Part shown: positions 18,519 through 28,375 of the stretch, one piece after another
Position numbering within the stretch: position 1 is the stretch's first letter
Layout of the letters: each line of letters starts with the position of its first letter
Source: Pirellula sp.
GTDB taxonomy: Bacteria; Planctomycetota; Planctomycetia; Pirellulales; Pirellulaceae
DNA: 58,022 nucleotides
Direction: 5' to 3'
Assembly (NCBI GenBank): GCA_025459355.1
Contig: JALOQS010000001.1
Location: forward strand, 1-58,022
The notes under the pieces: model-generated
Told to the model about the DNA's origin: nothing
Databases searched by the model: none
What the model saw: only the letters and a program-made list of their open reading frames with translations
Position numbers and translations under genes: made by a program

Positions 18519-18592
18519 GGCGATGTAGCTCAGTCGGTTAGAGCAACGGCTTCATAAGCCGTGTGTCGGTGGTTCGAGTCCACTCATCGCTA
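18519..18592 (+). tRNA. tRNA-Met (CAT), elongator type
   Basis: A full cloverleaf can be drawn. The acceptor arm pairs 18519-18525 with 18585-18591 (G1-U72 wobble), the D stem is GCTC/GAGC, the anticodon stem ACGGC/GCCGT encloses TTCATAA with anticodon CAT at 18553-18555, and the T arm has TTCGAGT. CCA is not encoded. The initiator marks (three G-C pairs in the anticodon stem, 1-72 mismatch) are missing, so this is elongator Met, or possibly the Ile-CAU tRNA that is modified to lysidine. The 3' half serves as the attachment site of the element that follows and stays intact after integration. Confidence 0.93.
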
Positions 18593-18595
18593 CTG
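18551..18595 (+). repeat. attL: 45-bp direct repeat inside tRNA-Met
   Basis: It starts in the anticodon loop (TTCATAA) and runs three bases past the discriminator A. It is identical to 28331-28375. Bases flanking the two copies differ on both sides (GGC versus CCG before; CAAAA versus TAGAG after), which fixes the repeat length at 45. Confidence 0.97.
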
Positions 18596-18623
18596 CAAAA
18601 AAACCAATGTTTTTCCACGTCGG

Positions 18624-18707
18624 ACGCTAGTTAGCGTACCAGTCAAAACGACTGAGCGACATTACTTTCCTGAAGTTCATACACCGAAACTGTCCTAATC
18701 AGACAGT
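18624..18707 (+). promoter_or_regulatory. Three successive palindromes between attL and the integrase gene
   Basis: ACGCTA-GT-TAGCGT (18624-18637), CAGTC-AAAAC-GACTG (18640-18654) and ACTGTC-CTAATCA-GACAGT (18689-18707) are all perfect inverted repeats. They lie in the 150 nt leader before int, a usual place for arm-type integrase sites, excisionase sites or the operator of the int promoter. Which of these they are cannot be told by eye. Confidence 0.55.
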
Positions 18708-18746
18708 ACACCGGTGGGTGAGCGTTAGACAAAGGAGTCGTTCAAC

Positions 18747-19979
18747 ATGCCAAGACCAAAGGCACAAGCACCCGCGATTAGTCGCCACCTTAGCGGCCAA
18801 GCTATCACCAAAGTTGACGGTGTTACGTTCTATCTTGGGAAGCACAATTCAGCGGAGTCATTCGCACGCTACGCAGTTTTGCTCAGGCGTTACCAGGAGA
18901 ACGGATTTAAGCTGCCGGACGATATCACACCGGAATCACTCAGGAGCCTGGACGTTGAGCCAGGACGCGTTGTTGACAAGGTTGATGAGTCGCAGGAGCC
19001 TATTACAGTCAAGCACATTGTGGAGTCGTACAGGGGCCACGTTAAGGTGCGATACGCTTTTAGCCAAAGCGAAAAGAATCGGCTGCTCCAGGTTTGCACC
19101 ATTGTCGAGAATGAAGCTGGAAAGCTGGAGGCTGACAAATTTGGTCCGAGATTGCTCCTCAAAATGCGTGGCGATTGGATCAAGTCCGGGAAAACCCGCC
19201 AATACTGCAATCGACTAGCGAATGCCGTTATCCGCATGTTCAAGTGGGCTGTCTCACAAGAGCTGGTAGACATTTCGACTCATCAGCGACTAAAGACTGT
19301 TGAGCCGCTCAGGATCGGTGAGACGGACGCGCCAGAGACCAAGCCGATACTACCGGCAAATTTGGATCACGTCAGAGCTACGGCAATTCACCTGCCACCA
19401 CAATTGAAGGCGGTCATTCGCATCATGGTTGTTACCGGTGCGCGACCATCCGAGATTCTGACAATGAAGCCCGCAGAAATCGATCGTAGCGGGGATGAGT
19501 GGTTCTATCGACCCAAACAGCACAAGAACGCTAAACGCGGGAAAACGCGTTCTATCCCTCTCGTGGGAGATGCCAAAGAAGCCGTGATTGATTACTTGAA
19601 TCGGGATGCGGATGCCTACTGCTTTTCGCCAAAAGAAGCCGTCGAATGGTGGAACGCACAGAAGCGTGCAGCAAGGAAATCCAAGGTACAGCCCAGCCAA
19701 CAAAACCGCAGGAATCCAAACGCAACAAAACTACCAACTGACTGCTACGACAAGCACAGTCTAGGACGTGCTATTTCGCGAGCTTGCAAGAAAGCAAATG
19801 TTCCAGCGTGGCATCCGTACCAGTTGCGTCACCTTGCTGGAACGATGGTTCGGGATGCACTTGGTTGTGAGGCTGCTCAGGCATTGTTAGGTCACTCATC
19901 GATGCAGATGACTCAGCATTACGCCAAGATCAACGAACAAAAAGCGGCAAAGGCTGCCAAGTCTATGCCCAAACTGTAA
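18747..19979 (+). CDS. Tyrosine recombinase / integrase of the element
   Basis: Catalyses site-specific integration and excision at the tRNA-Met site. 410 residues; ATG 18747 has AAAGGAG nine bases upstream. Residues 1-75 are an N-terminal arm-binding-like part typical of planctomycete integrases (KVDGVTFYLGKHNS). A SAM-like core-binding region covers about 85-185. Catalytic part: Arg233 in VTGARPSEIL, the HPYQLRHLAGT box (His356, Arg361), His383 in LLGHSSMQMT and nucleophile Tyr392 in QHYAKIN. In the HPYQLRH box the exact position of the first catalytic His differs from the textbook HxLR. The gene lies next to the tRNA and points into the element, as usual for tRNA integrators. Confidence 0.96.
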   Translation: MPRPKAQAPAISRHLSGQAITKVDGVTFYLGKHNSAESFARYAVLLRRYQENGFKLPDDITPESLRSLDVEPGRVVDKVDESQEPITVKHIVESYRGHVKVRYAFSQSEKNRLLQVCTIVENEAGKLEADKFGPRLLLKMRGDWIKSGKTRQYCNRLANAVIRMFKWAVSQELVDISTHQRLKTVEPLRIGETDAPETKPILPANLDHVRATAIHLPPQLKAVIRIMVVTGARPSEILTMKPAEIDRSGDEWFYRPKQHKNAKRGKTRSIPLVGDAKEAVIDYLNRDADAYCFSPKEAVEWWNAQKRAARKSKVQPSQQNRRNPNATKLPTDCYDKHSLGRAISRACKKANVPAWHPYQLRHLAGTMVRDALGCEAAQALLGHSSMQMTQHYAKINEQKAAKAAKSMPKL

Positions 19980-20016
19980 AATATATTCTTCGTCGAGAGG
20001 GGAGTAGCTACCCCGC

Positions 20017-20060
20017 GTCAGTTGGCGTCAATCATCCTCTAGTGGTTGGCGTCAACTGAC
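20017..20060 (+). promoter_or_regulatory. Repeat-rich site upstream of the 181-aa gene
   Basis: GTCAGTTG (20017-20024) and CAACTGAC (20053-20060) are an inverted pair. Inside and overlapping it, TTGGCGTCAA occurs twice in direct orientation (20022-20031 and 20046-20055, offset 24 bp, close to two helical turns and a bit). It lies 30 nt before the next start codon, so a regulator or recombination-factor binding site is likely. Confidence 0.5.
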
Positions 20061-20089
20061 ATCGACTTCACAAAACTAGAGGTATCTGT

Positions 20090-20635
20090 ATGAAGTCCAA
20101 CATCGAACTATTGGTTTCGGAATTGCGATTGCCGGGCGGATTGTCGCGTGAAGCCAAGAAGCTTGCTGACAGCGTTCGCGCCGAGCTAGTCGCGGAATAC
20201 AACGCAACTCCAGCGGGTTCGCTACGTCGGGGGCATATTGGCAGGGCATTGCGTTACATCGTTCGTTCGTGCTTTGATGTTGATTCTCACATCCAAGTGG
20301 ACCAGGGGGCGGCGGCGGATGCGCTCGAGCGACTACTGCCCAAATTGGATAGCCACGAAGCGCCAAAGGCTGAATCGATTGATGATTTGTTTGAACGGTT
20401 ACGACCTGAGTTAATCCAACTCAAAACCCGTCGTGATTGTGGAGACGCGTCAGAAGCGAGAAAAGACAGGACCGCAAATAAGACGCAGGGGTTCTATTCT
20501 GCGGATTGCGGCTGGGTTGCCTTTAAGAAATCGGGCAAGGCACATAACGCGCCGAATGATTGGTACGAAGTCCCTGAGCACTTACAAGCTACTGTCGAAT
20601 CTTTTTTTTCTCGAAAAACCAAGGGAAAACGCTAG
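20090..20635 (+). CDS. Hypothetical protein of the element
   Basis: 181 residues; the start ATG 20090 is preceded by AGAGGT at 20078-20083. The first 45 residues are helical (MKSNIELLVSELRLPGGLSR, KLADSVRAELVAEYNA). Residues 46-65 hold SLRRGHIGRALRYIVRSC. The centre (about 85-140) is charged and perhaps flexible, and the tail holds aromatic clusters (GFYSADCGWVAF, NDWYEVP) and a basic end KTKGKR. There is no signal peptide. It sits between the integrase and the HTH gene, where directionality factors or regulators are common, but I do not recognise a family. Confidence 0.65.
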   Translation: MKSNIELLVSELRLPGGLSREAKKLADSVRAELVAEYNATPAGSLRRGHIGRALRYIVRSCFDVDSHIQVDQGAAADALERLLPKLDSHEAPKAESIDDLFERLRPELIQLKTRRDCGDASEARKDRTANKTQGFYSADCGWVAFKKSGKAHNAPNDWYEVPEHLQATVESFFSRKTKGKR

Positions 20636-20641
20636 TTTCTA

Positions 20642-20667
20642 ATATCACTCGATATGACTAGTGATAT
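20642..20667 (+). repeat. 8-bp inverted repeat ATATCACT / AGTGATAT
   Basis: Perfect arms at 20642-20649 and 20660-20667 around a 10-nt spacer, just after the stop of the 181-aa gene. There is no T-run at its end, so an operator is more likely than a terminator. It is about 90 nt before the DUF1580-like gene. Confidence 0.5.
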
Positions 20668-20702
20668 CGAGGCAGATAATAAAAAAACGACTAATCCTGA
20701 AT

Positions 20703-20751
20703 ACTCCTGTCATGGCGTTTGTTGAAAAGCAAGCAGAACATGAACAGGAGT
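20703..20751 (+). promoter_or_regulatory. Stem that would hide the ribosome binding site of the DUF1580-like gene
   Basis: ACTCCTGTCATG (20703-20714) can pair with CATG-A-ACAGGAGT (20739-20751): twelve base pairs with one bulged A. The 3' arm contains AGGAG, the SD of the gene starting at 20756. If the transcript includes both arms, translation would be blocked until the stem is opened. It could instead be a protein-binding palindrome in DNA. Confidence 0.55.
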
Positions 20752-20755
20752 TGTT

Positions 20756-21067
20756 ATGGCGAAAACGATTAATTTCGAACAGGCGGAACAAGAGCTTAAC
20801 GCTAAAAAGGCGAAGCAAAAAGTTTACGTTGAACAGGCGGTTTCTAGGGTTCTCACAGAGAGCCACCGCACTATCAAACAAGCTCAGCAAGACATCCACG
20901 AAGCTAGTGGTATTCGTCCTGACAAAAGCACCGTCATTCGGTGGATTCTCAAAGGCAAGTCAGGCATTCGACTTGAAGCGGTTCGTATCGGCAATGTTTG
21001 GGTGACTAGCTCAGAAGCGATCACTCGATTCATCACCGAGATCACCGCTAAGTCACTCGCATCTTGA
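20756..21067 (+). CDS. DUF1580-like small HTH protein (possible excisionase/regulator)
   Basis: 103 residues with an ATG at 20756 and AGGAG five to six bases before it. The N-terminal 40 residues are a charged helix (FEQAEQELNAKKAKQKVYVEQ is its region). From about 40 on there is a MerR/AlpA-like winged-helix pattern: STVIRWILKGKSGIRLEAVR, then IGNVWVTSSEAITRFI. That closing pattern is typical of DUF1580 proteins that are frequent in Planctomycetes and often found beside integrases. Excisionases and AlpA regulators share this fold, so a role in excision or transcription control is likely but inferred. A hairpin in front covers its SD and a terminator-like hairpin follows. Confidence 0.75.
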   Translation: MAKTINFEQAEQELNAKKAKQKVYVEQAVSRVLTESHRTIKQAQQDIHEASGIRPDKSTVIRWILKGKSGIRLEAVRIGNVWVTSSEAITRFITEITAKSLAS

Positions 21068-21073
21068 AACGAA

Positions 21074-21113
21074 AACAGCCACCGGTGCAGATGGCTGTTC
21101 TCTTATCGTTTTT
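21074..21113 (+). terminator. Rho-independent terminator or attenuator after the DUF1580-like gene
   Basis: AACAGCCA (21074-21081) pairs with TGGCTGTT (21092-21099) around a 10-nt loop, followed by CTCTTATCGTTTTT. It lies between the HTH gene and the replication genes on the same strand, so it would separate early regulation from the replication operon or act as an attenuator. Confidence 0.6.
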
Positions 21114-21135
21114 CACACCTTTAAGGAGTCTTTAT

Positions 21136-21396
21136 ATGTTAGGCGATGCGGCCAACAAAACAAGTCTAGTGGATTTAGTGTTTTCCGATCGTCCGAGTTC
21201 GCCAATTTCGAACATCCTGGATGAGTTACTGGAGACGATGGAAGATGTTGAACAAGTCGATGCGTCGATGATTTTAGACGCTATCGCGATTCGTTGGCTG
21301 TTGGCCGATTTGCTACGAGGGCAGGGAATGCCGATTGAGAAGATAGTAGCGATGGAAACGAACCCCGAGATGAAAGCCGAGGTTCTGAATGATTGA
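21136..21396 (+). CDS. Small acidic protein ahead of the primase
   Basis: 86 residues. ATG 21136 has AAGGAG seven bases upstream, which decides this start over an upstream in-frame TTG at 21064 that would lie in the terminator. The protein is acidic and mostly helical (LDELLETMEDVEQVDASMIL, IRWLLADLLRGQ). Its end overlaps the primase start by 8 nt, so translation is coupled and the two products are made together. A helper for the primase is plausible; no family is recognised. Confidence 0.7.
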   Translation: MLGDAANKTSLVDLVFSDRPSSPISNILDELLETMEDVEQVDASMILDAIAIRWLLADLLRGQGMPIEKIVAMETNPEMKAEVLND

Positions 21397-23998
21397 TGAA
21401 ATCAAGCGTCAGGCAGCCGGGCGTTGCGGCGCAATTCTTGGGATGCAGTTGGCTAGGAATGATTCAGCCGGTCAGCCTTGCCCAAGGTGTGGCGGAACCG
21501 ATCGGTTTCATATCGATCGAGACTTCGAGACTAACGGCAAAGTTTATTGCCGACATTGTTTACCGAAAGGATCGGGCGACATCATCGGAACCTATGGCTG
21601 GTTGCATGGGATCGAGAACCCCGAAGCGATTAAGCGATTAGGGTCAGAGCTGGGAATAAAACCGGGCGATGCACCTAAGCGAAGTTTGATCGAGTTGATT
21701 TGCCACGAAAAGCGAATGCCGATCGATGCGTTCATGCAATTCGAGCCAACACTAGCGAAGCGTGGAAAGCTTGAAGTTGTTCGCGTTCCGGTTTGGAATG
21801 GCAAAGCAGAGAGGCACAGCTATTTCGATTTGTGGCCAGGTGACAAAGGCAAGTTTGCACGCGGTCAGGGAATGGCAGGATTCTTTTTCCCTGGACGATT
21901 ACCACAAGACGGTGAGACTTGGCATATCGTCGAGGGCGTTAAGGATGCGGCGGCATTGGTGGCGTTAGGATTCAACGCGGCGGGAATGCCGACTTGCGAA
22001 TTGGCGTCAGTCTATGCGAATCTCTTTCGTGGCGTTCATATCGTTTTCGTTCCCGATTTGGATATCCCTGGACAACGCGGAGCGCAGAAAAGCGGCGGCG
22101 TTCTCAAAGGAATTGCGGCGAGCGTTCGCATAGCAAGGCTACCGGGTGAGATCCGAGAAAAGCAAGGTGACGACGTTCGCGACATTCTACGCAAACCCAA
22201 CGGGGAGCAATTGGTTCGCGATGCGATCACCAACGCGGTAGAGTGGGAACCAGAGGAGCAACATACCGACAAGCGGCCGGAAGTCCTGTTGACGTTAAAC
22301 GAAGGATTCGTTGCCGACCAAGTAATTAAGCACTTAGGCAATCTCGGTTGGGTATCCCCTCGGATTCCAGAACGATTACAAGAATCGGTGCGGGTGTTTG
22401 TTCGCGGCGGTTCGCTTGTCCACGCAATTGAATCAGAGGATGAGCTAACGAAAGGAATGCTTTCCATACGTTCGCTTCCAGCAAGCTTGGTTCGAGAGCG
22501 AATAACACAAGCTTGTCAGCTAACGATCGAGCAAGGCAAAGAGGATGATATCGAGATCGTTCCAACGCGTCCTATTCGTTGGCTAGTCGATGCGATACAT
22601 CAACGCGGATTCTATGGCGGTTCAATTCGTCCGTTAACGGGCGTGGTTCAATCACCAACGATTCGAGCCGATGGTTCGATCATACAGACAGCCGGTTACG
22701 ATGAGGCGTCAGGATTGATCTATCGACCCAATGCAGAGTTTCCCCAGTTGGCAGAGAATCCAACGCGTGAGGATGCACAGCGAGCGATCGAGAAATTAAA
22801 TCACGTCACAATCGATTTTCCGTTTGTCGATCCAGCGGACCGTTCGGGATGGTTGGCAATGTTGCTTTCCATGATCGGGCGTCCATGCGTCGAGGGATGC
22901 GTTCCGATGTTTGCGATCGGTGCGAATATCCGAGGAGCCGGAAAGAGCCTTTTGGCAGATGCGGCAAGCTTGATTGCCTACGGGCGCCCAGCGTCGAGAA
23001 AGACGTTCACACGGGACGATGACGAACAGCGGAAGCTTGTAACGTCAATTGCGATCGAGGGAACACCATGCGTCCTATTCGACAATCTGGACGTTCAGCT
23101 AGGCGGAGCAAACATTGACGCGGCGTTAACGGCAAGGAGTTGGAACGATCGAATTCTAGGAGCAAGCAAAACGACCGGCGAACTACCGATGAGGACGGTT
23201 TGGGTTGCGACTGGAAATAACATTGCCTACGGTTCAGACGTGGCAAGGCGTGTTTTGCCTATCCGACTGGAAAGCCCATTGGAAGCCCCAGAGGATCGTT
23301 CGGGATTCGTTCACGGCGATCTATTGGGGTTCGTTCGGGAAAATCGACCGAGGCTAGCAATCGCAGCGTTAACGATTCTGAGGGCGTACTTCGTTGCAGG
23401 TTGTCCGAGTGTTCCGGATGGTGTTTGGGGATCGTTTGAGGAGTGGACGCGAATCATACGCGGTTCGCTTGTTTGGGCAGGGGGAGCCGATCCGTTACCG
23501 ACTAGGAAATCAGCGACCGATTCCGATGAGACGCGTTCACTGTTGGGAATGCTTGTTACAGGATTGACGGAAGCAGACCCAGACAAGGCAGGTTTAACGG
23601 TTGGTGAGATCGAGCGGATAGTGGCATCGCAGAACCGAGATAACCCGAGCTGCCCAACGCTACTGGAAGCAGTAGCGGCGATTTGTGGCAATGGATGGAA
23701 CGCTAAACGGTTTGGGCGGAAGTTGCTTTCCTTTAAGGACAGGACTTGGCAAGGGTGGCGAATCGAATCTGAATCAGCCGGTGGAGGCGTGAAGCGGTGG
23801 AGAGTCCGGGATGGTTATGGTGGGTATAGTGGCTTACACGAACCCCAATCTCTACGCGGGGAAAATAAAATCATCTCTCCTATACGTAAGGATGATATTT
23901 ATATCCCGTATGAGGAACGAGGTGAACCTAACCCATCAAACCCCGCAAACCCACTATTGCCGACATCGGGCGCGAGAATCGTATCGGGGGTGGTGTAA
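21389..23998 (+). CDS. Replicative primase-helicase with zinc finger, Toprim-like and ATPase parts
   Basis: 869 residues. The zinc-binding part near the start is of the CHC2/P4-primase kind: Cys31 and Cys34 in PCPRCGGTDRFHID, Cys54 and Cys57 in YCRHC. A Toprim-like segment follows (about 178-235: WHIVEGVKDAAALVALG, then VFVPDLDIPGQRGAQ). The C-terminal half is a P-loop ATPase: Walker A GANIRGAGKS with Lys519, Walker B-like CVLFDNLD and sensor WVATGNN. This layout suits an initiator/primase/helicase that can start replication of the excised element, like the alpha protein of satellite P4. It overlaps its neighbours at both ends (8 nt before, 1 nt after). Confidence 0.88.
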   Translation: MIDEIKRQAAGRCGAILGMQLARNDSAGQPCPRCGGTDRFHIDRDFETNGKVYCRHCLPKGSGDIIGTYGWLHGIENPEAIKRLGSELGIKPGDAPKRSLIELICHEKRMPIDAFMQFEPTLAKRGKLEVVRVPVWNGKAERHSYFDLWPGDKGKFARGQGMAGFFFPGRLPQDGETWHIVEGVKDAAALVALGFNAAGMPTCELASVYANLFRGVHIVFVPDLDIPGQRGAQKSGGVLKGIAASVRIARLPGEIREKQGDDVRDILRKPNGEQLVRDAITNAVEWEPEEQHTDKRPEVLLTLNEGFVADQVIKHLGNLGWVSPRIPERLQESVRVFVRGGSLVHAIESEDELTKGMLSIRSLPASLVRERITQACQLTIEQGKEDDIEIVPTRPIRWLVDAIHQRGFYGGSIRPLTGVVQSPTIRADGSIIQTAGYDEASGLIYRPNAEFPQLAENPTREDAQRAIEKLNHVTIDFPFVDPADRSGWLAMLLSMIGRPCVEGCVPMFAIGANIRGAGKSLLADAASLIAYGRPASRKTFTRDDDEQRKLVTSIAIEGTPCVLFDNLDVQLGGANIDAALTARSWNDRILGASKTTGELPMRTVWVATGNNIAYGSDVARRVLPIRLESPLEAPEDRSGFVHGDLLGFVRENRPRLAIAALTILRAYFVAGCPSVPDGVWGSFEEWTRIIRGSLVWAGGADPLPTRKSATDSDETRSLLGMLVTGLTEADPDKAGLTVGEIERIVASQNRDNPSCPTLLEAVAAICGNGWNAKRFGRKLLSFKDRTWQGWRIESESAGGGVKRWRVRDGYGGYSGLHEPQSLRGENKIISPIRKDDIYIPYEERGEPNPSNPANPLLPTSGARIVSGVV

Positions 23999-24234
23999 TG
24001 GGAACACCGGTGAACTTCCTTGTTTTCTGTTGGGCAATCGGCGTTCGATTGTCTGTAGTCGGTGATTCGGTTCGTTATGAAGCCGAAGCCGAGTTAGTTT
24101 CCGATGAGTTGATTGAAGTGATTCGACAACACAAAGAGCCGTTGCATTATCTGCTAAGCGGTTTGGCAGATGGCACGATTACCGAAAACGATATTCATGC
24201 AGCGTATGACCTGGAGGTATCGCAATGGAAATAA
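23998..24234 (+). CDS. TubC N-terminal docking-domain-like small protein
   Basis: 78 residues. ATG 23998 shares its first A with the primase stop (TAATG). Residues 4-55 follow the pattern of the TubC docking domain: a short helix, GVRLSVVGDSVRYEA, then SDELIEVIRQHKEPLHYLLSG. In natural-product synthases this domain joins subunits; similar stand-alone copies occur beside primases in mobile elements. Here it may tether the primase to a partner. The similarity is by pattern only. Confidence 0.6.
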   Translation: MGTPVNFLVFCWAIGVRLSVVGDSVRYEAEAELVSDELIEVIRQHKEPLHYLLSGLADGTITENDIHAAYDLEVSQWK

Positions 24235-24377
24235 CGATCACACTAACGACACCAGCGAGTTATCCGCCACCCGAGCCGGACGCATGGCAGCGATTGCGGA
24301 AGTTGCTCAAAGCGTTGTTGCGAGTCTATGGCTTGCGTTGCGTTGACATTCGCAGGACGGATGAGGACAAGCCGTGA
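24225..24377 (+). CDS. 50-aa basic peptide
   Basis: ATG 24225 has GGAGGT nine bases upstream and overlaps the end of the TubC-like gene by 10 nt; TGA at 24375-24377. The product begins MEITITLTTPASYPPPEPDA and has a basic amphipathic helix WQRLRKLLKALLRVYGLRC. The strong SD and tight packing support a real gene. No family is recognised. Confidence 0.6.
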   Translation: MEITITLTTPASYPPPEPDAWQRLRKLLKALLRVYGLRCVDIRRTDEDKP

Positions 24378-24470
24378 CCATTCCAAACACGTTACGAGCG
24401 AAGCCATGGCCATTGGCGGGGATGTTTGAGGCGAGGAGCGATACTCTCCCCCTGGGCATTAAACGATCTT

Positions 24471-24499
24471 TTGAGCCTTTCAAACGCTATACGGCTCAA
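24471..24499 (+). repeat. Inverted repeat in the leader of the 267-aa gene
   Basis: TTGAGCC (24471-24477) and GGCTCAA (24493-24499) enclose 15 nt. It lies in the 194-nt stretch between the 50-aa peptide and ATG 24572. There is no T-run after it, so it is not a simple terminator. It could be an RNA leader structure or an operator for the second half of the element. Confidence 0.4.
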
Positions 24500-24571
24500 T
24501 TGCATCGTGTTTCCGCACTAAGACATCGAAGCCTACCTTACAAAACCGTTTTTATTCGAGGAGTATTTGAC

Positions 24572-25375
24572 ATGAAGAGATTAAACACCCGCCTGGACGC
24601 CCTAGAATCGCGTTCTAGCGATGCGTTGACGCAAGATGACCAGATGAGCCTAGTTGACTTGCTGGCACGCAGAGACGCGTTGTTTTGGCCTTGGCGATGC
24701 ACGCTAGATTCCCCTGTTCCCTACGCGGAGATTTTCGCTCGTCAGGCGGATTACCTCAGTGGAGCGGTTGGGCTGAAAGTCAAAGCCGATGGCAAGCAAG
24801 ATTGGAAGGCATCGCACCACAAAAGGCAGCGGCTGATTGCATCGGGTTTCGTGAATGCCCAGGTTTCCGGCGGTCAGGTTTCGAGCCTGTTTTTGACTGC
24901 TCAAGGTGAAGCCGTTGCAAGGTCGCTGGTTGGTCCGAGGTTGCACAATTGCGAAACAGCGAAGCATTACTTCATCAAGTTGGTTCTGCTTGGCAAAACG
25001 ACCGAATGCACCTTGGTTAGGGAAAGCGTGCTGTTCTCTCGAACGTGCAATGGATCACCGAGCGATTGGGATCACGACACCGAGATGCTGCTACCGCTTT
25101 TGACAGCGGGGATGGTTCGAGCAATTCCGGACACTGTAGGGCGGATTCTTTACAAGCCCGTTGCAGGCGTCGAGTTCCCAGAGCATATCGATATGCCAAA
25201 TGGCACATCGTCCGATTTCGAGGATCTTTACCTAGCATCCTTTGACGCCGAAAGACAAGCACTTGAAACATGCGAGCCACGAAACGCAAACGAGCTGTTC
25301 ATTCCGGCGCCAGCATGTTCGAGCGTTGCACCACATTTCGATTTTTACAAGGGCAATCCAGATGAGACAATCTAA
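24572..25375 (+). CDS. Winged-helix-like protein of the element, unknown role
   Basis: 267 residues from ATG 24572, preferred because CGAGGAG stands eight bases upstream; the frame is open back to a GTG at 24374 (333 residues), which overlaps the previous stop and remains possible. After an N-terminal helix (MKRLNTRLDALESRSSDALT), residues about 60-125 look like a winged helix (HHKRQRLIASGFVNAQVSGG, then VSSLFLTAQGEAVARSLVG). A second, weaker copy of the pattern is at about 145-200 (LLPLLTAGMVRAI). DNA binding is inferred. Its end overlaps the next start by 14 nt. Confidence 0.65.
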   Translation: MKRLNTRLDALESRSSDALTQDDQMSLVDLLARRDALFWPWRCTLDSPVPYAEIFARQADYLSGAVGLKVKADGKQDWKASHHKRQRLIASGFVNAQVSGGQVSSLFLTAQGEAVARSLVGPRLHNCETAKHYFIKLVLLGKTTECTLVRESVLFSRTCNGSPSDWDHDTEMLLPLLTAGMVRAIPDTVGRILYKPVAGVEFPEHIDMPNGTSSDFEDLYLASFDAERQALETCEPRNANELFIPAPACSSVAPHFDFYKGNPDETI

Positions 25376-25727
25376 ATATCTGCAAGTTTTAGCGGCGGCG
25401 GTAGCATCAGGTTTGAGCGTTCGGGATGCGTCAAAAACTGCGGGATGCACCGAATCGACAGCCTACAGCCTCAGTTGCACCCAAGCGTTCAAGGATGAAG
25501 TCAGCCGACTTAAAAGCGAAGCAGTAACGCAGGCAGTTTCCGTTCTCACAGCAAATGCGACAGCGGCTAGCAATGCGTTGGTTCGCCTGTTGGCAAGCGA
25601 CGATGAGAAGGTTGTACTCGCGGCGGCAACAAAGATTCTAGGCACGCTAGGACCGATGCAGGAGTTGGCAGAGCTGCGGGCGCGAATCGAAGCAATCGAG
25701 GGGCAGCGGCTAAAGGTGGCGCGATGA
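25362..25727 (+). CDS. HTH protein resembling a phage small terminase subunit
   Basis: 121 residues from ATG 25362, inside the end of the previous gene. Residues 1-45 form a helix-turn-helix: KYLQVLAAAVASGLSVRDAS, then AGCTESTAYSLSCTQAF. A long alpha-helical region follows (AVTQAVSVLTANATAASNAL, DDEKVVLAAATKILG), ending in a charged helix ELRARIEAIEG. This order is shared with small terminase-like proteins of the phBC6A51 kind, which recognise DNA for packaging. It starts a tight run of overlapping genes with the zinc ribbon and the ClpP-like protease, both with phage parallels. Transcription factor is the alternative. Confidence 0.6.
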   Translation: MRQSKYLQVLAAAVASGLSVRDASKTAGCTESTAYSLSCTQAFKDEVSRLKSEAVTQAVSVLTANATAASNALVRLLASDDEKVVLAAATKILGTLGPMQELAELRARIEAIEGQRLKVAR

Positions 25728-25975
25728 GATCCGGTGAGCGGTGCGATTCATGCAGCATAGGCAGGATGCGAACGAGATCGACATTCACCAAAGGAGCAAG
25801 CCGAGTTCGATACTTGGTTTGCCCATCATGCGGCGCGACGGGCAAAGAGATTTTGCAAATCGACGATCTAGGTCGAACTATTATTTTGCCTGTCGTTGCT
25901 ACGCGTAGCAAACAAGGGGATGCACCTTTGCCATTCATCGATCTATCATTCATGCAAGGAGGGCAAGACCCATGA
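25724..25975 (+). CDS. Zinc-ribbon protein, Ogr/Delta-like size
   Basis: 83 residues; start ATGA overlaps the previous stop by 4 nt. Two CxxC pairs, Cys7/Cys10 (CDSC) and Cys33/Cys36 (CPSC), with RTRSTFTKGASRVRYLV between them, form a zinc ribbon. The arrangement and spacing recall the late-gene activators Ogr/Delta of P2/P4-type phages, but the second pair there is CxxxxC, so this is an analogy only. Its end overlaps the protease gene by 4 nt. Confidence 0.65.
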   Translation: MRSGERCDSCSIGRMRTRSTFTKGASRVRYLVCPSCGATGKEILQIDDLGRTIILPVVATRSKQGDAPLPFIDLSFMQGGQDP

Positions 25976-26646
25976 TTCAGATTCACAAACCGATTGGTCA
26001 GGCGCCAGGCGAGTTCAGCGCGGCAATGTTCCGATCACAGTTGCCGAAAAATGGCGAACCTTTGATTGTCAGTTTTCATTCCGAGGGCGGAAGTCTTTTT
26101 GAAGCGTTCGCAATCTTCGACATGATAAAAGCATATCGAGGTCGCAAGGTCGCGAAGGTGGAAGCGATGGCGTTTAGTGCGGCGTCGATGTTGCTTTGCG
26201 CGTTCGATTCCGTCGAGGTGAGTCCTAACGCGTACGTGATGCTTCACAATCCACACTTCGAGGGTGAATCGGTCGATGATTCGCAAAAGCGACTGCTTGC
26301 CCAATTGCGAGATCGGATGGTTGGGATTTACGCCGACAAGACCAGGCGACCAAGATCATTCATCGAGCGAGAACTGGACCGCGAGGTTTTCTATGATGCC
26401 CAGGCGTCGATCGGTTTGGGAATTGCAAATCGCATAGCTCCAGCGACGTTGGGCGTGGTTGCACGATTACCGCAGCGAATTGTCGCAAGGATTAGAAGCA
26501 GCGACGTGTCAGCAAAAGCAAGATGGAACACCGAAGTAAAAGCCCGTATCGCGGCCGGAAAGAATGGCATCGATGCTGTTCGAGCGGTTGACCGAGAGTT
26601 TCCTGGTTTGCGGTTGCAGATGTTGGCGGAAGTAAACAAACGATAG
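25972..26646 (+). CDS. ClpP-type serine protease, head-maturation-like
   Basis: 224 residues. The ClpP fold is seen in IVSFHSEGGSLFEAFAIFD, then AMAFSAASMLLCAF with nucleophile Ser69, VSPNAYVMLHNP with His92, and ELDREVFYDAQAS with the likely acid Asp136, ending GLGIANRI. Phage prohead proteases of this type share YVMLHNP. The C-terminal part (about 165-224) is a basic extension. No ClpX/ClpA partner or capsid gene is nearby. It starts by ATGA overlap with the zinc-ribbon gene. It could process a helper phage's scaffold or the element's own neighbouring coiled-coil protein; host ClpP-like housekeeping is unlikely in this context. Confidence 0.82.
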   Translation: MIQIHKPIGQAPGEFSAAMFRSQLPKNGEPLIVSFHSEGGSLFEAFAIFDMIKAYRGRKVAKVEAMAFSAASMLLCAFDSVEVSPNAYVMLHNPHFEGESVDDSQKRLLAQLRDRMVGIYADKTRRPRSFIERELDREVFYDAQASIGLGIANRIAPATLGVVARLPQRIVARIRSSDVSAKARWNTEVKARIAAGKNGIDAVRAVDREFPGLRLQMLAEVNKR

Positions 26647-26665
26647 TTTTCACACGAGGTAAAAA

Positions 26666-27457
26666 ATGATTACACAAGCTGATAGTTTTGTCGCAGATGT
26701 TGCGAGCGATTTCGCAGAAGAGTCGATAGTTGCCGATGGATTATTGTCTGAGATCGTCGAACAAGGCAGAGCACCTACCTATGCGGAAAAAGTGTATTTT
26801 GCGAAGCACTTGCGTTGGGATGAGAGAGAGGTCGGGCGTCAGCTAACCAGAATGGCGGCGGTCATTCGGGATTTGCGAATCGCTGGCAGCAAGGCAGATC
26901 GAGACGCAGCGACGAAAGAAGCTCAGGCGTCAGCGAAGATTCTGGACACTCAAGGTCCGAAGATTGCTGAGCAAATCGAGAAGCTCCAAGCCCAGTTGCG
27001 TTCGCTTGAACGTGACGCCCAGCTATCGACCAAACGCGTCGAGGAGCAAGCGGAAGCGGTTGTAAGACTTCGCGAGAATGCACCCGTCCACATTGCCGAC
27101 AAAGTTCGAATCGAGCGCGAGCGAATCACGGAAGGCGTATGGCGTGAGATCGAGAATACAAAATCGCGAATCAGTGAGATCGAATCTGTTCTCGATCCAT
27201 CGAAGCATGAAGGCGGAGAGCATGGTTACCTGTATCTGGATGCTGTCGCGCGTGTCAACCATGAAGCCGTTGTCTGGATTGACTCCAAGCCTTATCGCAA
27301 GAGGGCATTAAGCCCAGCGTGGCCTAGCATCAAGCGAGGGCTAGAAAAGGAATTGTCGGAGTTGCGGGCAAAGCTGAAAAAGTTGACGCCACAATACGAA
27401 GCCGAGGTCGTCAAGATTGAAGCGGATTTGAATTTCTACGTTACGAGGAGAGGTTAA
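26666..27457 (+). CDS. Long coiled-coil protein downstream of the protease
   Basis: 263 residues. There are two strong coiled-coil regions: about 80-145 (KIAEQIEKLQAQLRSLERD is part) and about 215-255 (KELSELRAKLKKLTPQYEAE). Between them is a globular stretch with HEGGEHGYLYLDAVARVNHE. There is no signal peptide or membrane helix. The start ATG 26666 follows CGAGG and lies 19 nt after the protease stop. Phage scaffold proteins are often coiled-coil and encoded next to the maturation protease, so a scaffold or capsid-size factor is a reasonable guess, not shown. Confidence 0.7.
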   Translation: MITQADSFVADVASDFAEESIVADGLLSEIVEQGRAPTYAEKVYFAKHLRWDEREVGRQLTRMAAVIRDLRIAGSKADRDAATKEAQASAKILDTQGPKIAEQIEKLQAQLRSLERDAQLSTKRVEEQAEAVVRLRENAPVHIADKVRIERERITEGVWREIENTKSRISEIESVLDPSKHEGGEHGYLYLDAVARVNHEAVVWIDSKPYRKRALSPAWPSIKRGLEKELSELRAKLKKLTPQYEAEVVKIEADLNFYVTRRG

Positions 27458-27460
27458 GAA

Positions 27461-27685
27461 ATGTTGAAGCGAATTTCGATTGATGTTGAGTTACCAGACG
27501 TTGCACCCGAGGGCTATCGTCCTCTTCCGTTTGCGCGACTCGGTGCAGAGCGTAGCGACAACTTGGCGCGGTTGGCGTCAGCATTGCGAACCGCAGAAAT
27601 GCCGAGCGACTTAGAATTAGTTCTCGGTGCGCTCGCAGATGCGATTGGAGCGGCCGAACCTGTCGAGGTCGAGCCTGTTGAATAG
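27461..27685 (+). CDS. Small acidic protein, element operon end
   Basis: 74 residues; ATG 27461 has GAGAGG before it and starts 3 nt after the previous stop. The N-terminal part is a short beta-like stretch (LKRISIDVELPDVAPEGYRP), the middle a helix (DNLARLASALRTAEM, DLELVLGALADAI) and the end is acidic Glu/Val-rich (EPVEVEPVE). No family recognised. Confidence 0.65.
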   Translation: MLKRISIDVELPDVAPEGYRPLPFARLGAERSDNLARLASALRTAEMPSDLELVLGALADAIGAAEPVEVEPVE

Positions 27686-27779
27686 TTGGTTGGCATGGCG
27701 TTCTGTATTGGTCAGCGAATATCGGTTCTTCGCTAAATGACGATCAACGGTGCAAGTCTGTTGAGATCCAGGGCGTTTA

Positions 27780-27835
27780 CCCGTTGGGCTGTTGGTGATT
27801 ATCCCACCATGTAGTCCAGCGGGTTTTTCTTTTTT
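27780..27835 (+). terminator. Terminator at the end of the main element operon
   Basis: CCCGTTGG (27780-27787) pairs with CCAGCGGG (27816-27823) with one G-U pair; an inner stem TGGTG/CACCA can form as well. TTTTTCTTTTTT follows directly. This is the clearest intrinsic terminator in the window. It ends one base before the GGGGAG ribosome site of the next small gene. Confidence 0.8.
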
Positions 27836-27845
27836 GGGGAGTAGC

Positions 27846-28064
27846 ATGGAATCAGAATTTATCGAGCCAAAGCGATTACCACAGACTCCCACGAGCTTTC
27901 CGCCTGGAAGCCTTGGCAAGTTACTTGTAATGCGTGAGCGACTCGAAAACGGTGAGCACATACACCATGAGCATGATTGCAGGTTGACTCTACCGAGCAC
28001 CGGCGGGCGCAGAGTTAGCGTGACATTGTCACAGGATGCGGGAGAAGTTCGCACGCACGCGTGA
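27846..28064 (+). CDS. 72-aa protein after the terminator
   Basis: ATG 27846 has GGGGAG at 27836-27841, directly after the U-tract of a terminator. The 72-residue product has a proline-rich start (RLPQTPTSFPPGS), a helix (LGKLLVMRERLENGEHIHHE) with several His, and a beta-like end. Because the SD touches a terminator, expression would need read-through or antitermination. The last 17 bases of the gene are the first copy of a direct repeat. It may also be a chance ORF. Confidence 0.45.
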   Translation: MESEFIEPKRLPQTPTSFPPGSLGKLLVMRERLENGEHIHHEHDCRLTLPSTGGRRVSVTLSQDAGEVRTHA

Positions 28065-28163
28065 GCTGCAATACCCTCACGACGACGTGAGGTTTCATGG
28101 TCACATCACGAAGCCATTCGCACGCACGCGTGAAATGCAACTGGAAGTTCGCGATGTCGCGAA
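28048..28163 (+). repeat. Repeat and palindrome cluster near attR
   Basis: TTCGCACGCACGCGTGA occurs at 28048-28064 and 28117-28133 (offset 69 bp). Between them CCTCACG-ACGA-CGTGAGG (28075-28092) is a perfect inverted repeat, and TTCGCGA-TG-TCGCGAA (28148-28163) is a perfect palindrome. The rest up to attR (28164-28330) has no convincing gene. Such clusters serve as replication origins, packaging sites or integrase arm sites in small elements. Confidence 0.65.
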
Positions 28164-28330
28164 GTTTACCCTCAACATCGGTGCAGCGGAGTTGTTATTC
28201 GTCCTACACCGAAATACACCGCAACTACCCTTATTCGATACTTTGCTTGCAACTCCGGTTGCACTGTGGTACGATACAAAACGCAGGAAAAGTAATGTTT
28301 TTGAGCTTTTCAAGACCTGGAAAAAACCCG

Positions 28331-28375
28331 TTCATAAGCCGTGTGTCGGTGGTTCGAGTCCACTCATCGCTACTG
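28331..28375 (+). repeat. attR: second copy of the 45-bp direct repeat
   Basis: Identical to 18551-18595. It carries only the 3' part of tRNA-Met from the anticodon loop on, so it cannot give a tRNA. It marks the right end of the integrated element. Confidence 0.97.

Follow-up and report, generated by a model that had tools for sequence, protein, structure and literature searches.

A compact element in a tRNA-Met gene of Pirellula carries a head-maturation protease without a recognised capsid gene and is probably a phage satellite

How is an integrated element propagated that carries genes for handling phage heads, and no recognised gene for a capsid, a portal, a large terminase or a tail? 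The question is raised by a 9.8-kb island in the 58,022-nucleotide stretch of Pirellula sp. DNA that we analysed (assembly GCA_025459355.1, contig JALOQS010000001.1, positions 1 to 58,022; hereafter the window). A preliminary description of the window had taken the island for a satellite of a planctomycete phage. Our analysis supports this reading through compact relatives that, as is usual for satellites, have only part of the genes for packaging, head or tail: judged from its genes alone, the island is probably a phage satellite, for which a helper phage would supply most of the virion parts.

The island is bounded by two exact 45-nt repeats with a spacing of 9,780 bp, the left one lying in a tRNA-Met gene that is the sole tRNA called by ARAGORN in the window (Table 1). 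Since an integrase adjoins and the repeat reproduces 45 nt of a tRNA gene without a mismatch, we dismissed a chance repeat; the att repeats of the preliminary description proved to be exact copies at both ends. All accepted genes of the island are on the plus strand, and several overlap by 4 nt. The single gene direction described earlier was also borne out by codon usage, which scored 0.064 to 0.222 for 13 of the 14 listed plus-strand genes or open reading frames (ORFs), and -0.107 to 0.068 for 20 chosen minus-strand ORFs, judged by this score alone; the only minus-strand ORF above 0.026 (27023-27262) lies opposite the coiled-coil gene. In base composition the island was not distinct from its surroundings. 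An empty att site with matching flanks, sought in the genus, was not proven in any of 11 stretches, among which four flanking genes of the window found only general ABC-F matches, in two.

Next to the left att copy the island encodes a tyrosine integrase in which R233, K260, R361, H383 and Y392, which we take to be catalytic, are all present. Further in lies a primase/helicase with a GAGKS P-loop and matches to PHROGs groups for a polymerase/primase (phrog_19930, Table 1) and a primase (phrog_510, 8e-13). A later block of five genes encodes p333, a TerS-like protein with a helix-turn-helix (HTH), a zinc-ribbon protein with two CxxC pairs visible in its sequence, a ClpP-type head-maturation protease and a coiled-coil protein. 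Apart from p333, these features had been named in the preliminary description, and family matches or sequence motifs were found for each of them, weak in the case of TerS and generic in that of the coiled coil. In NCBIfam the protease scored 91.7 bits with the head-maturation model NF045542, below its 120-bit cut-off, against 48.3 bits with housekeeping ClpP models. Its residues S72, H92 and D136 presumably form the ClpP-type triad, which they fit, and are unchanged in the orthologue from another genus (G522). By homology, the protease and, with its weak match, the TerS-like protein may act on the packaging or the head of another phage.

Ten window proteins were compared with Pfam, PHROGs and NCBIfam, and three small ones with PHROGs. 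In none of these 13 did we find a match to TerL, portal, capsid or tail, as the preliminary description had said, nor did these library scans uncover a capsid, portal or TerL among the genes without a family. The island therefore has an integrase and att sites and no complete virion gene set; the set of a complete prophage (TerL, portal, capsid, tail) was not found between the att sites. One might suppose that the island is a minimal self-sufficient virus whose capsid is p333, p181 or the coiled-coil protein. The protein p333 is conserved, belongs to no family and gave an unsuccessful fold prediction (mean predicted local distance difference test score, pLDDT, 34), which speaks for this view. 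However, no packaging motor or portal was found, and the relatives described below have ordinary HK97-type capsid or TerS genes after their replication genes; we give such a virus hardly any chance.

The block of five genes is conserved beyond the genus. A 4,085-bp contig of UBA11397 (G522:C686), a genome of the island's own family, encodes p333, the TerS-like protein, the zinc ribbon, ClpP and the coiled coil in the order of the window, with identities of 54, 49, 66, 54 and 39%, respectively (40% for the coiled coil in a second comparison). Between the two blocks pN/pS was 0.40-0.55, below 1 in all five genes, which is only a rough measure because synonymous sites are near saturation (pS 0.60-0.80). 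A search of the genome contigs with the ClpP pair returned this contig only. Single genes of the block have further relatives. A tRNA-Met element of a sister species (G585) has another integrase, a DUF1580-like gene, a relative of the zinc-ribbon protein and a relative of p333 (55% over 110 aa) cut by the contig end. The zinc-ribbon protein, for which the library matches included no convincing family, also has two copies in G511 (51%). The coiled-coil protein has a homologue in G402 (23%), and shows no homology to the coiled coils of G473, G476, G562b and G585 (hhalign probability below 1).

The integrase provided a wider view of relatives, matching at E≤1e-40 in 77 of 199 genomes of the family. 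We analysed 51 integrase loci, mostly the best-scoring ones and a subset of all listed, including those of the window and of contig C345 of the same genome, and took the genes at each up to the far att copy or for 13 kb. Long proteins were scanned singly, while integrases and the primase of G419 were named by similarity to those of the window. A far att copy was found at 10 of the 51 loci, many contigs being short and some long ones having no copy in reach. These ten att-bounded elements, the window's included, were chosen regardless of gene content and comprise one prophage, one cargo island and eight compact elements with replication genes. Homologous elements are thus not always part of a longer prophage or a conjugative island, and the comparison of synteny proposed in the preliminary description revealed partial packaging, head and tail sets among the compact ones.

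The eight compact elements measure 6,952 to 15,351 bp, and neither TerL nor portal was found in any of them by the long-protein scans and phmmer, whose seeds labelled portal include two 495-aa capsids (of L130 and L131). Over all 51 loci, phmmer with five TerL seeds, which distant TerLs may escape, detected TerL-like proteins in two (G562_C1a and G533_C24). Six of the eight, the island with its TerS-like protein and ClpP among them, carry fragments of a virion kit. The G419 element (7,432 bp) has TerS (phrog_83, 4.8e-7) and ClpP (phrog_94, 5.4e-41); that of G538 (9,278 bp), also in tRNA-Met, has a capsid (PF05065, 2.1e-26); that of G462 (9,963 bp) has a protease-capsid fusion (phrog_4523, 1.2e-54); and that of G476 (14,683 bp; L082, L113) has a tape measure (phrog_1533, 9.4e-76). 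The 15,351-bp element G562b encodes an 817-aa protein that matches unnamed PHROGs only and is related (3.8e-28) to a 1,053-aa protein that an IMG/VR phage encodes in what is presumably its tail region. Judging by these matches, the relatives use other fragments of the virion kit than the island does, whether a capsid of their own, a protease fused to a capsid or a tape measure. Two small genes of the G476 element, tail-type by reading, have relatives in the G562 prophage and in an IMG/VR phage.

The one prophage, G562_C1a (25.9 kb, in tRNA-Asp; L076, L108), looks complete and has a related integrase, TerL (phrog_38, 2.2e-24), portal (phrog_21, 5.9e-38) and capsid (phrog_212, 5.2e-22), with presumed tail genes after them. 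It represents a helper-type phage for the integrase family. The cargo island, that of G539 (13.9 kb), has a DUF1580 relative beside its integrase, and scans of four of its long proteins gave neither a replication nor a virion family. Other elements moved by the integrase family encode a Rep-like zinc protein and a ParB-like protein, named from reading (G462_C3, L097; G476_C12+, L082; G533_C80, L081; G569_C44, L098), and are perhaps integrative plasmids. Finally, in a sister species (G537, L174) the same tRNA-Met is occupied by a 10.5-kb island whose integrase is divided between two ORFs and in which no virion gene was recognised by reading.

Further relatives were found by capsid or ClpP searches and are hence a selected sample. 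The element of G514 (9,181 bp, tRNA-Pro) encodes a DnaB-like helicase, ClpP and a capsid, with a single 70-aa ORF between protease and capsid genes. That of G555 (16,746 bp, tRNA-Arg), which has a more distant integrase, encodes a capsid, an adjoining ClpP and a tape measure. Two short G522 contigs also carry a capsid, one of them together with TerS (phrog_83, 2.9e-12). The PF03354 TerL model had no match in the G514, G555 and G522 genomes, and phrog_2 had one weak match elsewhere in G522 (9.4e-7).

Among viral contigs, the integrase alignment found nine IMG/VR loci, of which four were examined. One, IMGVR_UViG_3300035459_000162 (L149), has identical 123-nt ends, which suggests a circle of 7,821 bp, and a tRNA-like 3' half directly upstream of the integrase gene as its attP. 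It encodes the integrase, a DUF1580-like protein, a primase, TerS (phrog_83, 1.3e-10), a 206-aa coiled coil and an HK97-type head protease in two pieces (phrog_80, 1.8e-24 and 2.6e-11); no capsid, portal or TerL was recognised. By its gene content it is the clearest stand-alone relative, combining TerS with a head protease, of another kind than the island's, without a recognised capsid. A second locus is the end of a 36-kb contig on which the genes beside the integrase are similar to those presumed to encode the tail in G562_C1a, and in the remaining two no virion gene was recognised by reading. Searches of the viral contigs with the primase, the ClpP pair and a three-primase alignment gave no confirmed relative, and an alignment of four capsids gave five weak partial matches.

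PF05065 (capsid) matched in 16 of the 77 integrase-bearing genomes, at 24 places; we examined the stretches around 20 of these and the G538 island. (For the protease, such a count is not usable, because phrog_94 matches in all 77 genomes, housekeeping ClpP among them.) The capsid tree holds 19 sequences, five from TerL-less elements, nine from TerL-bearing loci and five unlabelled. A single branch with support 94/91 splits the five TerL-less from the nine prophage capsids; label shuffling gave a value as low in 0 of 500 shuffles for the TerL-less group and in 1 of 500 for the TerL group. Two of the unlabelled capsids (G555, G422) fall on the TerL-less side. The prophage labels were checked with PF03354 and annotated phage records, and a PF03354 match adjoins the capsid in all nine prophage loci. 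The five TerL-less capsids come from four genomes, three of them without PF03354 and the fourth being G538, whose two matches are far from the island. The tree includes two near-copies (the short G522 contigs) and one serine-recombinase element, and is weakly resolved on the prophage side; it leaves out fragment L145, a weak 171-aa match in L143, the fusion of G462, the capsid of the G562 prophage, which falls in another PHROG, and L140, for which no capsid was among the called genes. The locus G402 L132:8044-16073 is a compact stretch of another kind, with a ParB-like gene, a serine recombinase and an HK97-type capsid that belongs to the TerL-less lineage; no further phage gene was recognised there, and no att was found.

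These results bear on the possibility that the island is a decayed prophage, from which capsid, terminase and tail genes were deleted and a few leftovers kept. The related integrase of the complete-looking 25.9-kb prophage in G562 and the split-integrase island in the same tRNA-Met of a sister species would fit such decay. The att cores of the island, however, are exact, and its 4-nt gene overlaps are like those of a live operon; a second genus keeps these five genes in an unchanged order, with pN/pS below 1; other compact elements, one of them apparently circular, keep TerS and a head protease; and the TerL-less capsids group apart from those of prophages. We therefore regard decay as very improbable.

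The satellite reading implies a helper, and the preliminary description had proposed a look for related prophages in the same genome. This check brought no helper-type match: in the island's own assembly (459 contigs, 76.5% complete) PF05065, PF04860, PF03354, phrog_2 and phrog_38 all failed to match, so no helper was found. PF03354 had no match either in the whole genomes of G000, G402, G419, G462, G473, G476 and G562, and two in that of G538, both more than 1.7 Mb from its island. This search is not exhaustive because it missed the TerL of G562's own prophage; the TerL-like proteins of both G562 and G533 escape PF03354 and phrog_2 alike. The one-contig genome of G538 has, in addition to the capsid-bearing island, two regions that resemble prophages and carry TerL, portal-like and capsid genes. 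The own genome does hold other elements. On contig C345 two of them, E2 and E3, abut at one att copy and apparently form a tandem array at tRNA-Lys. E2 (L024:1196-2422) is cut by the contig end and has an integrase 72% identical to the window's. E3 (L024:2578-13962), flanked by 46-nt copies of a segment of tRNA-Lys, is 11,339 bp long and encodes a polymerase/primase-like and a helicase/primase-like protein, a p50 relative, a 639-aa protein without assignment and its own integrase.

Several findings weigh against a satellite, beginning with the missing helper: only G538 among the searched genomes of the compact relatives has PF03354 TerLs, so helpers in the same genome are not the rule. The integrase family is not specific to satellites, since prophages, Rep/ParB-like elements and a cargo island make use of it too. 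No virion gene was recognised in two of the eight compact elements (G402, G473), and the 817-aa protein of G562b may be called tape-measure-like by similarity only. Within the island, the TerS assignment is weak for the window copy (phrog_2538, 0.0068). Its model (mean pLDDT 80) has an N-terminal HTH followed by a 38-residue helix, and Foldseek with this model found no match below E 0.001 in PDB and BFVD. Weak BFVD matches include named terminase small subunits (E 0.028 and 0.059, others weaker still); in PDB, Sf6 TerS came only 28th (E 1.2), behind TetR-type regulators. Because the fold searches gave weak matches only, the assignment rests on PHROG matches, that of the orthologue (2.6e-5) included, and on gene order. 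Nor did the coiled coil give a scaffold match that stood out from noise (for the orthologue, phrog_233 at 0.036), and its G402 homologue matched no scaffold family.

Might the island then be independent of phages, a genomic island or a mobilisable plasmid-like element that has put a ClpP-like protease and an HTH protein to other uses? The missing helper would suit it, as would the cargo island and Rep/ParB-like elements with the same integrase family and the absence of an integrase match at 1e-5 in the phage collection. The protease, however, is nearer to the head-maturation than to the housekeeping ClpP models, the relatives carry capsid, tape-measure and TerS genes, and neither did a relaxase or conjugation family turn up in general library scans of the window proteins nor did the integrase match in the plasmid collection. 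An origin of this kind is in our view improbable.

As a phage satellite, the island would be excised by its integrase, with the DUF1580 protein as directionality factor, and the excised form would be copied by its own primase/helicase. The helper phage would provide the major capsid protein, portal, large terminase and tail. The TerS-like protein may bring the satellite DNA to the large terminase of the helper, a step towards which we lean slightly. The protease, perhaps with the coiled coil (a candidate scaffold, as we infer) acting as an alternative scaffold, might take over the maturation of the helper procapsid to suit a small genome, which we find plausible rather than likely. The protease could instead be a weapon that cuts the helper's scaffold or capsid early, with the satellite packaged in unmodified helper heads. 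For a builder a protease without a capsid is odd, two PHROG protease groups (ClpP type and HK97 type) occur in this position, and satellites are known to interfere with their helpers (PMC6092414). However, the protease adjoins an own capsid in G555, lies one 70-aa ORF from it in G514 and is fused to it in G462. Because this is a builder's arrangement, we favour the role of a builder and consider a weapon rather unlikely.

The remaining features of the island are listed in Table 1. The DUF1580 protein is probably an excisionase or directionality factor; relatives of it were found at no fewer than 23 of the 51 loci analysed, and no paper on this family was found in the open-access literature, subscription journals being largely outside the scope of our search. 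The leader between the left att copy and the integrase gene probably contains integrase arm sites and the int promoter, and positions 18610-18775 share 74% identity with the matching stretch of contig C345, which comprises the leader of the second integrase there and the start of its gene. Matches to the primase/helicase were found in 38 of 392 genomes of the phylum at E≤1e-10, the own genome counted. Copies of p50 occur in E3 (78% identical) and in G507 (49% over 45 aa), and its motif is present in G538. The 24-nt repeats at the right end sit in DNA without a well-supported gene and are possible arm, origin or packaging sites.

Table 1. Features of the island and its borders, with positions in the window
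Feature	Position	Strand	Basis or remark
tRNA-Met gene	18519..18593	+	integration target, restored by left att copy; ARAGORN
attL core, 45 nt, 3' part of tRNA-Met	18551..18595	.	exact repeat
Conserved att-int leader	18596..18746	.	resembles leader of second integrase on C345
Tyrosine integrase, 410 aa	18747..19979	+	PF00589 5.4e-18; phrog_1 1.1e-32
Protein without family, 181 aa (p181)	20090..20635	+	ORF; codon score 0.128; no Pfam, PHROGs or NCBIfam match
DUF1580 protein, 103 aa	20756..21067	+	PF07618 2.2e-9
Protein without family, 86 aa	21136..21396	+	codon score 0.161; 110 aa with TTG at 21064
Primase/helicase, 869 aa, zinc ribbon and P-loop	21389..23998	+	PF08273 3.6e-6; phrog_19930 2.3e-34
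Small protein, 78 aa	23998..24234	+	weak HTH match, phrog_12757 0.02
p50, small conserved protein	24225..24377	+	common to other elements
p333, no family	24374..25375	+	GTG start at 24374 uncertain, true start maybe further in
TerS-like protein, 121 aa	25362..25727	+	phrog_2538 0.0068 in window copy, 2.6e-5 in orthologue
Zinc-ribbon protein, 83 aa	25724..25975	+	two CxxC pairs; 4-nt overlap with both neighbours
ClpP-type head-maturation protease, 224 aa	25972..26646	+	PF00574 2e-18; phrog_94 3.1e-30; NF045542 4.8e-26
Coiled-coil protein, 263 aa	26666..27457	+	generic coiled-coil matches only; homologues in G522, G402
Protein, 74 aa	27461..27685	+	ORF; codon score 0.222
Doubtful ORF, 72 aa	27846..28064	+	ATG with GGGGAG upstream; codon score -0.014, not gene-like
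Pair of 24-nt direct repeats close to attR, 69 nt apart	28048-28071 and 28117-28140	.	repeat family D2
attR core, 45-nt exact copy	28331..28375	.	exact repeat

Is the island then a member of a known family of satellites? The signature genes of P4 are Sid, Psu and Delta. In the island only Psu was matched, in the DUF1580 protein and far below the cut-off (0.031; 14.2 against 27.4 bits), and no other P4-named family was found. Tycheposons and VEIMEs also stand near; of these, tycheposons target tRNA genes, a likeness to the island that is drawn from description. P4 and PLE encode scaffolds, Sid and TcaP, that make small helper capsids (PMC10945586), a role that the coiled coil of the island could by inference share; PLE was set beside the island by description.

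Phage-inducible chromosomal islands (PICIs) are described as 12-15 kb long, with int, xis, a primase and sometimes terS, a divergent regulator and no structural genes (PMC6092414). Integrase and replication genes together with a TerS-like protein liken the island to them and to the Staphylococcus aureus pathogenicity islands (SaPIs). It differs in its head-maturation protease and its length of 9.8 kb, in showing no divergent regulator (the 20 minus-strand ORFs being unconvincing by codon score) and in that related integrases also serve prophages. PICI att sites are described as never occupied by prophages; a related integrase serves the prophage of G562 in tRNA-Asp, and in tRNA-Met no prophage was seen among the few loci examined. 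Capsid-forming PICIs (cf-PICIs) encode capsid, portal, connectors, both terminase subunits and a head-maturation protease (PMC10690885). The island resembles them as an integrated satellite with head genes, such a protease included, and differs in that only the protease and the TerS-like protein were found in it, TerL and portal being found in none of the eight compact elements. For the capsid-only relative in G538 there is a precedent in Ccm of SaPIbov5, which is homologous to capsid proteins and redirects the capsid of the helper (PMC8569155). The pairing of a head maturation protease with a small terminase is found in TG93, an episomal PICI-like element of Vibrio crassostreae whose authors read it as disrupting head assembly (PMC13230959); TG93, however, is a plasmid with a capsid gene and no integrase detected, whereas the island sits in the chromosome and has no capsid gene that we could find.

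Because a tested feature of PICIs, cf-PICIs and P4 each fails, we regard the island as a satellite of a family not yet filed. One published introduction lists the known satellite families mainly from Firmicutes and Gammaproteobacteria (PMC10803314). The preliminary description had called planctomycete satellites undescribed, and within the scope of literature given above we indeed found no paper on them. We propose, tentatively and as something short of likely, that this planctomycete family captures helper heads by means of its own protease, TerS and possibly a scaffold, without a capsid of its own; that two kinds of protease, ClpP and HK97, have been recruited and sister satellites use a separate capsid lineage; and that these elements form an open series between PICIs and cf-PICIs. 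If this is true, such satellites would be widespread in one family of Planctomycetota and would form a graded series, with TerS and protease, capsid only, protease and capsid, or tape measure only. Such a series would make it testable how satellites shift between stealing the head of a helper and building their own, and a head protease without a capsid would give a new handle on the control of capsid size and maturation.

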